Source of the DNA: an uncultured Pelagibacteraceae bacterium
GTDB lineage: Bacteria; Pseudomonadota; Alphaproteobacteria; Pelagibacterales; Pelagibacteraceae
Direction: 5' to 3'
DNA: 36,450 nt
Assembly: GCA_902535255.1 (NCBI GenBank)
Contig: CACASQ010000008.1
Span: forward strand, 1-36,450
The notes under the pieces are model-generated. The model saw only the letters and a list, made by a program, of their open reading frames with translations, did not search any database and was not told where the DNA came from. The first letter of the stretch is position 1; each line of letters opens with the position of its first letter. This document shows positions 8,599 through 14,578 of the stretch, piece after piece. Both the position numbers and the translations under genes were made by a program.

Positions 8599-10272
8599 AT
8601 GGATATAAGTAAATTAAATAGCTTAGTTGAACTTTATTTTAAAAAGACAGAAGAAGTCGAGGGTAGAAGACCATTCTTAAAATGGTTAAAACCAGAAAAA
8701 AGAACTTATAATTGGGAAGATATAACTCAAAGAATTTTTAAATTAACTGCAAAAATTAAATCGTTAATTAGACAAGGGGACAGATGTTTAATCCTATCTG
8801 AAAATAGACCTTACTGGTTAATGACCGATATTGCCATTATGAATGCTGGAGGTATTTCAGTTCCAATTTTTACAACTTATTCCGCAAACGATTATGAATA
8901 TATTTTAAATGATTGTAAGCCCTCATTGGTATTTGTATCAAATCAAAATCAATTTGATAAAATTAAAAAATTTATAAGAAGCGATGTAAAAATAGTATCT
9001 TTCGAAAAAATAAATACTGATAGTTTATTAATTAAAGAAATATTAAATGAAGAAGTTAATGAAAAAATAGTTAATAAAGATTTAAAACGAAATATGCCTG
9101 CTTGTATAATTTACACATCAGGTACTTCTGGAAAACCAAAAGGAGTTGTATTAAGTCATGGTGGTATTCTATCTAACTGTGAAGGTGCAGTTGAATTATT
9201 AGAAGTTTTAACTAAAAAAAAAGATCCGGTTTTTTTGACCTGGTTACCTTTATCACATTCTTATGAACATACAGTTCAATTTATACAAATTATAGTTGGA
9301 GCAAAAGTTTTCTATGCTGAAAGTTTAGAAAAACTGATTTCTAATATGGGTATTGCAAGACCTACAATCATGACAGCTGTACCTAGATTCTATCAAAATC
9401 TTTATACAAAAATAAATATGAATTTTGAAAAGCAATCTGGATTAAAAAGAAAACTTATAAACCAGACTTTAGATTTAGGTAAAAAAATACTCAAAAAAAA
9501 GGAACTGAAATTAGGTGAAAAAATTGTAAATTTTTTGTGCGAAAAATTAGTAAGAAAAAAAATCAGAAATCAGTTTGGTGGCAATCTCCAAGCCTTCGTA
9601 TCTGGGGGAGGGGCTTTAGATCAAAATATTGGAGAATTTTTAAATTCTGTTGGTTTACCCACGCTACAAGGATATGGCCTAACCGAAGCCTCTCCAGTCG
9701 TAAGCTGTAATTTACCAGATCTAGTCAAGGTCGAATCAGTAGGACCACCGTTTAGGACTAATAAAGTGAGAATAGCAGAAGATGGAGAAATACTTATTAA
9801 AGGTGAAAACGTTATGTTGGGATATTGGAATTTGAAAGAGGAGACAGAAAAAGTAATTAAAGATGGATGGCTTCATACTGGGGACATAGGAGAACTTGAT
9901 AATAATAATTATTTAAAAATTACAGATAGAAAAAAAGATATTATTGTAAATCTTGGTGGAGATAATATTTCTCCGAGCAAAGTAGAAAATATTTTGTGTT
10001 TAAATGAAAACATTAAACAATCTTTTGTTTATGGAGATAAAAAAAATTATTTAGTTGCGTTAATTGTTAGTGAAAAAGGAATTAATAAAGAAAAAATTAA
10101 ACTTATAATTGAAAACATAAATAAAAATTTAACATTAATAGAAAAAATTAAAAAATTTATCTTAATTTTCGAGGAATTTACAATTAAAAACGGAATGCTA
10201 ACACCAACTTTAAAGTTAAAAAGAAAAGAAATAATAAAAAATTATAAACAACAACTAGAAAATCTTTATTAA
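8599..10272 (+). CDS. AMP-dependent long-chain acyl-CoA synthetase
   Basis: 557-residue ANL-superfamily enzyme that activates fatty acids to acyl-CoA through an acyl-AMP; cytoplasmic. Motifs in order: the P-loop YTSGTSGKPKG (172-182), the WLPLSHSYEH region, YGLTEASP (359-366), the hinge-side TGD (427-429) and DRKKD (443-447), followed by NLGGDNISPSKVE. The layout is closest to bacterial FAA1/FadD15-type long-chain enzymes. The usual C-terminal catalytic lysine is probably within TPTLKLKRKEI. The ATG is 4 nt after the CCA of tRNA-Leu with no Shine-Dalgarno, so after tRNA processing the mRNA would be essentially leaderless. Chain-length preference is unknown. Confidence 0.9.
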   Translation: MDISKLNSLVELYFKKTEEVEGRRPFLKWLKPEKRTYNWEDITQRIFKLTAKIKSLIRQGDRCLILSENRPYWLMTDIAIMNAGGISVPIFTTYSANDYEYILNDCKPSLVFVSNQNQFDKIKKFIRSDVKIVSFEKINTDSLLIKEILNEEVNEKIVNKDLKRNMPACIIYTSGTSGKPKGVVLSHGGILSNCEGAVELLEVLTKKKDPVFLTWLPLSHSYEHTVQFIQIIVGAKVFYAESLEKLISNMGIARPTIMTAVPRFYQNLYTKINMNFEKQSGLKRKLINQTLDLGKKILKKKELKLGEKIVNFLCEKLVRKKIRNQFGGNLQAFVSGGGALDQNIGEFLNSVGLPTLQGYGLTEASPVVSCNLPDLVKVESVGPPFRTNKVRIAEDGEILIKGENVMLGYWNLKEETEKVIKDGWLHTGDIGELDNNNYLKITDRKKDIIVNLGGDNISPSKVENILCLNENIKQSFVYGDKKNYLVALIVSEKGINKEKIKLIIENINKNLTLIEKIKKFILIFEEFTIKNGMLTPTLKLKRKEIIKNYKQQLENLY

Positions 10273-10404
10273 AAATTAAATTAAAACTTATTTAATTTGC
10301 TTAAAAAAACATTGATATTACTAACTTTTTTTTAATCTTATTAAAAATTAAAAAAATAATTAAAAAAATTAAATTTTGAATCAAATTTGCAAATTAATTT
10401 ATGT

Positions 10405-10432
10405 TTGACATGAATTTTTAATTAATTAATGT
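10405..10432 (+). promoter_or_regulatory. Putative promoter of the basic micro-peptide gene
   Basis: A perfect -35 box TTGACA (10405-10410) is followed after 16 nt by TAATGT (10427-10432). Transcription would begin near 10439, a few bases ahead of a stem-loop. The 130 bases upstream of it (from 10273) are almost pure A/T, with a 12-bp palindrome AATTTGCAAATT near 10384, and hold no gene. Confidence 0.55.
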
Positions 10433-10442
10433 AAACATTAAC

Positions 10443-10465
10443 AAACGAATCATTAAGATTTGTTT
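10443..10465 (+). promoter_or_regulatory. 5' leader stem-loop of the micro-peptide mRNA
   Basis: AAACGAATC and GATTTGTTT form a 9-bp stem with one G-U pair around an ATTAA loop. It would start about 4 nt from the predicted mRNA 5' end. Stem-loops at that position are known to stabilise bacterial mRNAs such as ompA; that role here is inference. Confidence 0.45.
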
Positions 10466-10483
10466 ACTAACAAGGGAGAAAAG

Positions 10484-10555
10484 ATGGCTAAAAGAAGAAA
10501 AAAAGCTAAAAAGAAAACTAAAAAGAAAGCAAAAAAGAGAAGAAGAAGAAGATAG
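10484..10555 (+). CDS. Lys/Arg-rich 23-residue peptide
   Basis: A tiny gene preceded by a strong Shine-Dalgarno (AGGGAG, 5-6 nt before the ATG), its own promoter and stem-loop, and followed at once by a hairpin terminator. The product has 11 Lys and 7 Arg in 23 residues, begins MAKRRKKAKKK and ends in five Arg; the rest is Ala, Thr and Met. This composition resembles histone H1 tails, protamines or AlgP-type tails, so nucleic acid or polyanion binding is the natural guess. No known family is recognised. The complete expression unit argues that it is a real, probably abundant, product and not a low-complexity accident. Confidence 0.72.
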   Translation: MAKRRKKAKKKTKKKAKKRRRRR

Positions 10556-10569
10556 TTTTCTCTTTAACT

Positions 10570-10607
10570 AAACGCCCTTTTTATTTTTTAAAGAGGGCGT
10601 TTTTTTA
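10570..10607 (+). terminator. Intrinsic terminator after the micro-peptide gene
   Basis: A GC-rich stem AAACGCCCT (10570-10578) / AGGGCGTTT (10594-10602) is followed by a run of T. The T run contains the stop codon of the convergent carD gene. In an otherwise AT-rich gap this is clear; the reverse direction has a shorter T-rich exit. Confidence 0.9.
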
Positions 10608-11276
10608 TTCCATCTGCTCTGAAATTTTAGTTCTTCCTAAAGCCTTATCCATTTTTTTCTGAACTTCTTCAGGGCTGACTTTTAACACCGCTTCAAATTC
10701 AGATTTTAGTCTCTCGTATGCTTTTTCGAATAACTGTCTTTCCGAGTAAGATTGATCTGCAATAATATCTGTATTTTTATTTAGATCCTTCACCACTTCA
10801 GCTAATTCATATATCTTACCCGAGTTGATTTTTTGGTCGTACTCTTGTGCTCGTCTACTCCACATAGTCCGTTTTATTTTCGGTTTAGTTTTTAATATTG
10901 AGACACATTTGTTTATCTGATTAATTGTCGCTATTGGACGTAATTTTGATTGTTGGTTTATTGGAACCGTTAATGTAAGTTTTTCTTTCTCTACTAAAAT
11001 TTTATAAAATTGAATATCTATTTCACCTATCTTCGCTTTTTCTATACTGGTAATTTTTCCTACTCCATGCTTAGGGTAAACTACAAAGTCTTTCAAATTA
11101 TAAACTCTTTTTTCTGTTGGCTGTTTTTTTACTTTTTTAATTTCGGGTTTATCCTCTTGACCTGAAACTAAATTTTTTTTCTCCGGTACTTTTATATTTG
11201 ATTTAAGCTTGAGGCTTATTATTTTCTTTAATTTTTTTGTTTTATTAACCTTTTTATTTTTCTTTTTTCTTGGCAT
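10605..11276 (-). CDS. carD: CarD/CdnL-family transcription regulator
   Basis: 223 residues. The CarD RNA-polymerase interaction domain (Tudor-like) starts near residue 59 with YNLKDFVVYPKHGVGKITSIE; the rest is helical (MWSRRAQEYDQKINSGKIYELAEVV...), the part that contacts promoter DNA. CarD proteins bind the RNAP beta subunit and stabilise open complexes at rRNA and other promoters. An unusual feature is the N-terminal extension of about 58 residues, very rich in Lys (starts MPRKKKNKKVNKTKK), which may bind nucleic acid. It begins 2 nt after the fdxA stop, the last gene of the helicase operon; helicase/ferredoxin/carD order is common in alphaproteobacteria. Confidence 0.93.
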   Translation of the reverse strand: MPRKKKNKKVNKTKKLKKIISLKLKSNIKVPEKKNLVSGQEDKPEIKKVKKQPTEKRVYNLKDFVVYPKHGVGKITSIEKAKIGEIDIQFYKILVEKEKLTLTVPINQQSKLRPIATINQINKCVSILKTKPKIKRTMWSRRAQEYDQKINSGKIYELAEVVKDLNKNTDIIADQSYSERQLFEKAYERLKSEFEAVLKVSPEEVQKKMDKALGRTKISEQME

Positions 11277-14468: not shown

Positions 14469-14552
14469 TTTTGTGTCAGTTAATTTTTTTTACACTATAT
14501 GTAGATCAAATTTGAGAACAAAATAAGATTAAAACATGACCGAATCAATTTG

Positions 14553-14578
14553 TCAAATGTTCCTATTTGAACATTTGA
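14553..14578. repeat. 10-bp perfect inverted repeat, operator-like
   Basis: TCAAATGTTC and GAACATTTGA face each other across CTATTT. The repeat ends two bases before the TTGACT -35 box of the aminotransferase promoter, where a regulator dimer could block or activate RNA polymerase. It could also affect the divergent helicase promoter. Confidence 0.55.

Follow-up and report, generated by a model that had tools for sequence, protein, structure and literature searches.

A minute lysine- and arginine-rich gene convergent with carD in SAR11 bacteria and its possible role as a histone-like tail

SAR11 bacteria rank with the Earth's most numerous cell types and have few regulators. Does a 23-codon open frame lying between an acyl-CoA synthetase gene and carD in one of their genomes represent a gene, and what might its product do? 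The frame belongs to a stretch of 36,450 nucleotides from an uncultured Pelagibacteraceae bacterium, hereafter the window. The acyl-CoA synthetase gene ends on the 5′ side of the unit, at position 10272, and carD (10605 to 11276, minus strand; Pfam PF21095 and PF02559) is its convergent neighbour. A first-pass annotation had described the unit as self-contained, with a perfect -35 box, a stem-loop at the predicted mRNA 5′ end, a strong Shine-Dalgarno, a 23-codon frame with 11 Lys and 7 Arg, and a GC-rich terminator. We recovered each of these parts on the plus strand. The -35-like box TTGACA occupies 10405 to 10410 and is followed, after a 16-nt spacer, by TAATGT (10427 to 10432), a weak -10-like hexamer picked by eye; a consensus scan of the plus strand of the window found no sigma-70-type site, there being no consensus -10. 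A GANTC (CcrM) site, CGAATCA, lies at 10446 to 10452, near +5 of the predicted transcript, and folding places the 5′ stem-loop AAACGAATC-ATTAA-GATTTGTTT at 10443 to 10465, with nine pairs including one G-U. The Shine-Dalgarno GGGAG (10474 to 10478) precedes the micro-gene MAKRRKKAKKKTKKKAKKRRRRR, which runs from the ATG at 10484 to the TAG at 10555 and specifies 23 residues (11 K, 7 R, 3 A, 1 T and 1 M), 18 of them basic (78% K+R), with a mass of about 3 kDa by hand estimate. The intrinsic terminator stem-loop (10570 to 10602) abuts the carD 3′ end. Its 14 pairs and T tail bear out the claim of a terminator (one found by the scan, against a mean of 0.0 in shuffled sequence), but with five G-C pairs it is only moderately GC-rich. 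The plus strand from 10425 to 10610 folds with z = -4.11.

The distribution of the unit was assessed across related genomes. At E <= 0.001, a DNA search with positions 10405 to 10640 had matches in 50 of the 61 related genomes; many of these matches were weak and of low complexity, and the strong ones all fell within the genus of the window. We used CarD as an anchor for locating the slot in relatives. It was present in 66 of 81 relatives and, across the order, in 217 of 247 genomes. The carD flanks examined came from the whole first group of 66 and from 32 selected members of the second, giving 98 Pelagibacterales genomes. At five loci (L028, L079, L080, L083 and L120) the contig ends at carD and the flank is unreadable. 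The first-pass annotation had suggested looking for basic frames beside carD in SAR11, with absence from relatives counting against the proposal, and all 93 readable flanks held a K/R-rich open frame at the corresponding position, likewise convergent with carD and preceded by TTGAC and CGAATC. The unit spans nine genera and two families. Frames are 20-25 aa long in the genus of the window (g1, n = 41), 22-23 in g9 (3), 21-35 in g6 (18), 31 in g7 (2), 36-38 in g5 (2), 34-58 in g8 (4) and 40-91 in the sister family f2 (genera g2-g4, 23). Over the 93 units the K+R fraction ranges from 0.53 to 0.86 and the net charge from +15 to +50, with K, A and R predominating. The units of relatives that were displayed carry GGGAG or GGAG as Shine-Dalgarno, and the rows of the window's genus share a CGCCC..GGGCG terminator stem. 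Given the low complexity of the products, protein homology is unprovable by alignment, and orthology rests on position, orientation and the shared leader. As a side observation on the same flanks, a long acyl-CoA synthetase-like frame at L086 (G021:C4:50800-52000), read by eye, has a GTG start and a very K/R-rich N-terminal stretch of about 50 residues.

An independent scan of genome contigs used a pattern that covers the leader and start only (ACGAATCA, gap, RGGAG, gap, RATGSCTAARA). It returned at least 119 stretches, 116 of which lead into frames of 20-35 aa with more than 55% K+R, one of these frames being cut off by the end of its contig. Ordinary frames follow in the remaining three stretches, which lie on a Flavobacteriales MAG contig, in Roseivirga and at L215. 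Among the 80 pattern matches listed, 78 were in records titled Pelagibacteraceae, Pelagibacterales, SAR11 or Pelagibacter. A convergent carD was found within 600 nt in 111 of the 116 peptide loci, and the remaining five had too little flank. Outside the order, 28 carD loci of other Alphaproteobacteria, taken from the top-scoring of 162 matching genomes, were without such a frame (ATG or GTG, at least 18 aa, within 1.2 kb); two of them offered only 137 and 325 nt of flank. A single GTG frame with 43% K+R among them looks like chance.

Loss of the unit in genomes without carD was considered and rejected. Ten genomes, drawn from overlapping carD-less sets of 15 and 30, were searched for the helicase upstream of carD, with G035 as positive control. 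The helicase was missing from seven, and in three the contig ended inside it, so that an assembly gap is likelier than loss. The broken helicases next to carD lie at assembly ends in G006:C4, G217:C19 and G239:C22.

Selection on the frame was examined through codon differences among 23 distinct frames of the window's genus, taking pairs of the same length with at most eight differing bases and counting single-base codon changes only. Sixteen distinct codon changes were observed, 11 synonymous and five exchanging K and R, with none of any other kind. By comparison, a single base change to the frame in the window has 207 possible outcomes, of which 37 are synonymous, 18 conserve K/R, 134 replace residues in other ways and 18 create stops. 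The 39 frames of this genus differ in length, but each retains the Arg/Lys block at its C-terminus, and its stop codon precedes the terminator. Frames this basic are rare by chance: 400 kb of the related complete genome G083 contained no ATG frame of 15-110 aa with at least 50% K+R. With ATG, GTG and TTG starts admitted, about 400 kb each of G083, G000 and G037 yielded 2, 8 and 2 frames at this threshold; the best of the eight in the window's own genome (G000, 396 kb, 15-130 aa) reached 59% over 27 aa, and within the window the micro-gene is the only one.

The first-pass annotation had also raised a non-coding transcript with frame-breaking variants. A regulatory RNA, whose working parts would be the hairpin and the terminator, with a frame that is either incidental or a leader peptide, would suit the strong conserved 5′ hairpin and the tightness of the unit, but we found no frame-breaking variant: the basic frame is open in all 93 units, codon differences preserve K, R and A, and the transcript ends at the terminator with the next gene on the other strand. 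We consider this reading very improbable. Attenuation of carD, or a leader peptide for it, is rejected because carD is convergent, on the opposite strand. A known structured RNA was also discarded, since Rfam at gathering scores gave two tRNAs only in the window and the main text of Meyer 2009 (PMC2704228) is without carD, lysine or ferredoxin, as was a phage origin, positions 10270 to 10640 having zero matches in the phage collection. Read at the level of sequence, the comparison attests to a conserved unit with a conserved frame, selection for K, R and A, a hairpin and an invariant GANTC.

Could such a gene have been missed? Genes of fewer than 30 codons are easily overlooked by gene callers, and a product this basic is shredded by trypsin; a core gene could thus have escaped both gene callers and proteomics. 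The Smith 2016 proteome used trypsin, and "histone" and "small proteins" are absent from its main text (PMC5069961). Among the matches listed from the open-licence PMC literature, none described such a gene.

The longer members of the series provided insights into the kind of protein involved. In the sister family f2 and in g8, which belongs to the same family as the window, the slot holds proteins of 34-91 residues that resemble the tail of histone H1 through Ala-Pro-Lys repeats, such as MEELKVIFAKARKKAKKKAAPKKKRKAAKRKPAKKKAAPKK... in f2 and MAKKRKKAAKKKAPAKKRKAAKK... in g8, and AAPKKK/PAKKRK repeats recur in these longer SAR11 forms. Proline occurs in all 23 frames of f2 and all four of g8, and in none of the 41 of the window's genus. 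Since the longer forms occupy the same slot, the 23-mer represents the short end of a graded series, and one locus spans a 91-residue H1-like protein and a 20-residue tail. The resemblance to a protamine or histone tail that had been proposed from the 23-mer is sharpened by these same-slot forms. Protamines and histone tails have an extreme basic content and a C-terminal Arg block, as does the SAR11 peptide; it differs from them in being bacterial, in having more K than R and in lacking Cys.

Hc1/Hc2 of Chlamydia, AlgP of Pseudomonas and the tail of PhaF are bacterial H1-like proteins that share with the SAR11 series a lysine-rich, low-complexity composition; their repeat-driven variation in length has a possible counterpart in the longer SAR11 forms of f2 and g8. 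Chlamydia Hc2 varies from 165 to 237 aa through lysine-rich pentamers (PMC2848022), and the tail of AlgP is made of KPAA repeats described as H1-tail-like (PMC9239181). Unlike these proteins, the SAR11 product has no recognisable folded domain and no Pfam match, its gene is monocistronic and convergent with carD, and the form in the window is 23 aa long and devoid of proline. Searches of Pfam and NCBIfam with the 23-mer and an 85-mer returned no family at E up to 1, low-complexity 23-mers being nearly invisible to profiles; lacking a profile match, the product is filed as working like the H1-like proteins and not as a member. The kind, a bacterial H1-like polycation, is known; a variant with a length of 20-25 residues, an order-wide distribution, a fixed carD neighbour and a GANTC leader was not described among the literature matches listed.

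What would the peptide do? With 18 basic residues, no acidic ones and no hydrophobic ones other than Met and Ala, the 23-residue chain would be unlikely to fold alone and should bind polyanions. The H1-like longer forms make DNA the first candidate ligand. The product probably coats nucleic acid, and we judge it probable, going by composition and the longer forms in the same slot, that it is a disordered polycation that neutralises nucleic acid with DNA as its main target. All ten genomes tested carry three HU/IHF-family genes; the peptide would thus be an accessory, and nothing suggests that it stands in for other chromatin proteins.

Three other roles for a peptide of this composition were weighed. 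The first is a small basic peptide associated with the ribosome or RNA, filling a groove in the rRNA. Small basic ribosomal proteins of this sort include eL41, bTHX, bS22 and bL37. The SAR11 peptide is similar in size and charge. In the window's genus, Arg accounts for about 0.41 of its basic residues, and many genomes share a MAKRRKK start, the conservation of which exceeds the needs of a pure charge role and counts against a charge-only reading. However, a single locus whose products range between 20 and 91 aa and include repeats is unusual for a fixed ribosomal site, the neighbour is carD and not a ribosomal operon, and PDB sequences gave no match at E up to 10, a weak test given its low power for a 23-mer. 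We regard a ribosomal role as unlikely. On a related note, the window's own genome holds a tiny basic frame at L295:18476 (G000:C1:98476), MGYPKKHRGRRKIGSKKRRARKRNKKK, of 27 aa and 59% K+R with a strong Shine-Dalgarno, which could encode a small ribosomal-type protein.

Polyphosphate had also been named as a ligand, and an organising role of this kind has a precedent in AlgP, whose H1-like KPAA-repeat tail goes with an association with Pseudomonas polyphosphate granules (PMC9239181). PPK1, however, was found in only four of ten genomes, and five that are 99-100% complete (G081, G082, G083, G085 and G202) carry the micro-gene without it, which makes polyphosphate improbable as a general ligand; we would give this role little credence. 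A secreted or antimicrobial cationic peptide scarcely merits consideration: its charge is like that of cell-penetrating peptides, but in the window's genus the product consists of K, R, A, T and M only, leaving no signal peptide or hydrophobic face, and it is found order-wide.

The DNA-coating polycation remains our preferred reading of the product, and the leader bears on how its supply might be controlled. CGAATC is present in all 93 units, and the next base is A in all rows displayed except L096. TTGAC and CGAATC stand 38-42 nt apart in 92 of the 93; in the last, the script took a second, later TTGACT. When 67 distinct leaders were folded against 100 shuffles each, the mean z was -3.5 and 66 fell below -1.5. 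In the folds displayed (at most five per group), CGAATC forms part of the 5′ arm of the stem in g1, g6, g9 and f2. In g5, g7 and g8 the main stem has another sequence and starts at or just after the end of CGAATC, which is still invariant; for this reason the hairpin and CGAATC look like two constraints. The displayed folds of f2, g5 and g8 (for example L060, L115 and L110) contain a second hairpin that pairs CTCC/CCTC with the Shine-Dalgarno. It was not seen in the displayed g1 and g6 leaders, and suggests translational control where it occurs.

CGAATC conforms to GANTC. Read on the opposite strand, CGAATCA becomes TGATTCG, which matches the extended GcrA-activation motif proposed in Caulobacter (TGATTCG / YGAKTCK); the same source reports no preference for the extended motif in Brevundimonas (PMC7987155). 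A CcrM homologue has been stated for SAR11 (PMC3973325), and the GANTC sites of Pelagibacter are described as methylated and linked to the cell cycle (PMC9516812). We detected GcrA in all ten genomes tested, by a search whose control also matched in Sulfolobus, and a CcrM-type RAMA domain in all ten, the match in G202 being short and with a stop. The micro-gene thus has in common with GcrA/CcrM-controlled promoters of Alphaproteobacteria an extended GANTC and the encoded GcrA and RAMA domain. In a survey of Caulobacter, which considered sites lying no more than 50 bp upstream of starts, activation at 40-60 minutes went with a site position between -10 and -35 (PMC4287350). The micro-gene site, in contrast, lies about 40 nt after TTGACA, outside that zone and near +5, where it overlaps or abuts the hairpin.

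This position invites an alternative that is compatible with the protein reading and concerns the leader only, namely that CGAATC acts in RNA, as 5′ structure or regulator site, and not through DNA methylation. The motif sits at the predicted mRNA 5′ end, within the 5′ arm of the stem in four groups, and three groups have the second hairpin on the Shine-Dalgarno. In 400 kb of G083 the strict box-to-GANTC arrangement did not occur elsewhere and the loose one occurred four times against 4.7 expected; a wider promoter class with this spacing was therefore rejected, which also favours a role in RNA. Against it, CGAATC is invariant even in g5, g7 and g8, it is exactly GANTC, and as CGAATCA it is the extended GcrA motif. 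We see a role in RNA as a serious possibility, short of an even chance, and methylation-linked control of the micro-gene, judged from the motif and its conservation, as roughly evenly balanced for and against.

Specific avoidance of CGAATCA elsewhere in the genome was also rejected. On both strands of about 400 kb each, G083, G000 and G037 contain 4, 4 and 7 copies, where a sub-word model expects 4.7, 6.9 and 12.3; the model accounts for the low counts, so that the rarity reflects scarcity of sub-words and not special avoidance. In samples of the same three genomes (L271-L330), the scarcest GANTC 7-mers were mostly GAATC/GATTC and the commonest mostly GACTC/GAGTC.

Based on these findings, we postulate that a monocistronic gene at every readable Pelagibacterales carD flank examined produces a disordered polycation of 20-91 residues (here 23), whose action would resemble that of the C-terminal tail in histone H1 or in the H1-like proteins of bacteria. 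This polycation would bind nucleic acid without sequence preference through charge neutralisation, most probably the chromosomal DNA, and would help to compact or screen the nucleoid alongside the three HU/IHF-family proteins; in the lineage of the window, the peptide would be the bare tail. The 5′-terminal hairpin may protect the short mRNA, and the invariant GANTC in the leader suggests a possible link between replication and the supply of the peptide. Translation, DNA binding, cell-cycle timing and mRNA stabilisation are, in this scheme, inferred from sequence. More tentatively still, the peptide might be a free-standing minimal histone tail, a linker-histone equivalent cut to 20-25 residues in streamlined genomes, with its dose clocked by replication through a CcrM/GcrA mark at the transcription start. 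The peptide offers a handle on the packing of a streamlined nucleoid and on the role of GANTC methylation in SAR11.

The neighbouring operon, on the minus strand, comprises the helicase, a TerB-like gene (a label guessed by eye), a ferredoxin gene and carD. Its promoter has TTGACA at 14551 to 14556 and TTTAAT at 14528 to 14533 (coordinates by eye), and TGATTCG lies inside the 17-nt spacer, that is, between -10 and -35 as described for Caulobacter. At this position GATTC is present in all 44 loci whose sequence extends 260 nt past the helicase start, and the full TGATTCG in 29 of them; with a GANTC at both promoter regions, both convergent units carry the mark. The window holds three copies of CGAATCA: in the micro-gene leader, at 9732 inside the acyl-CoA synthetase gene, and at 14541. 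CarD is a possible partner for the basic peptide. The protein encoded in the window has a lysine-rich N-terminal extension, and g6 loci such as L091 have an acidic C-terminal CarD tail, seen by eye in the flank DNA.
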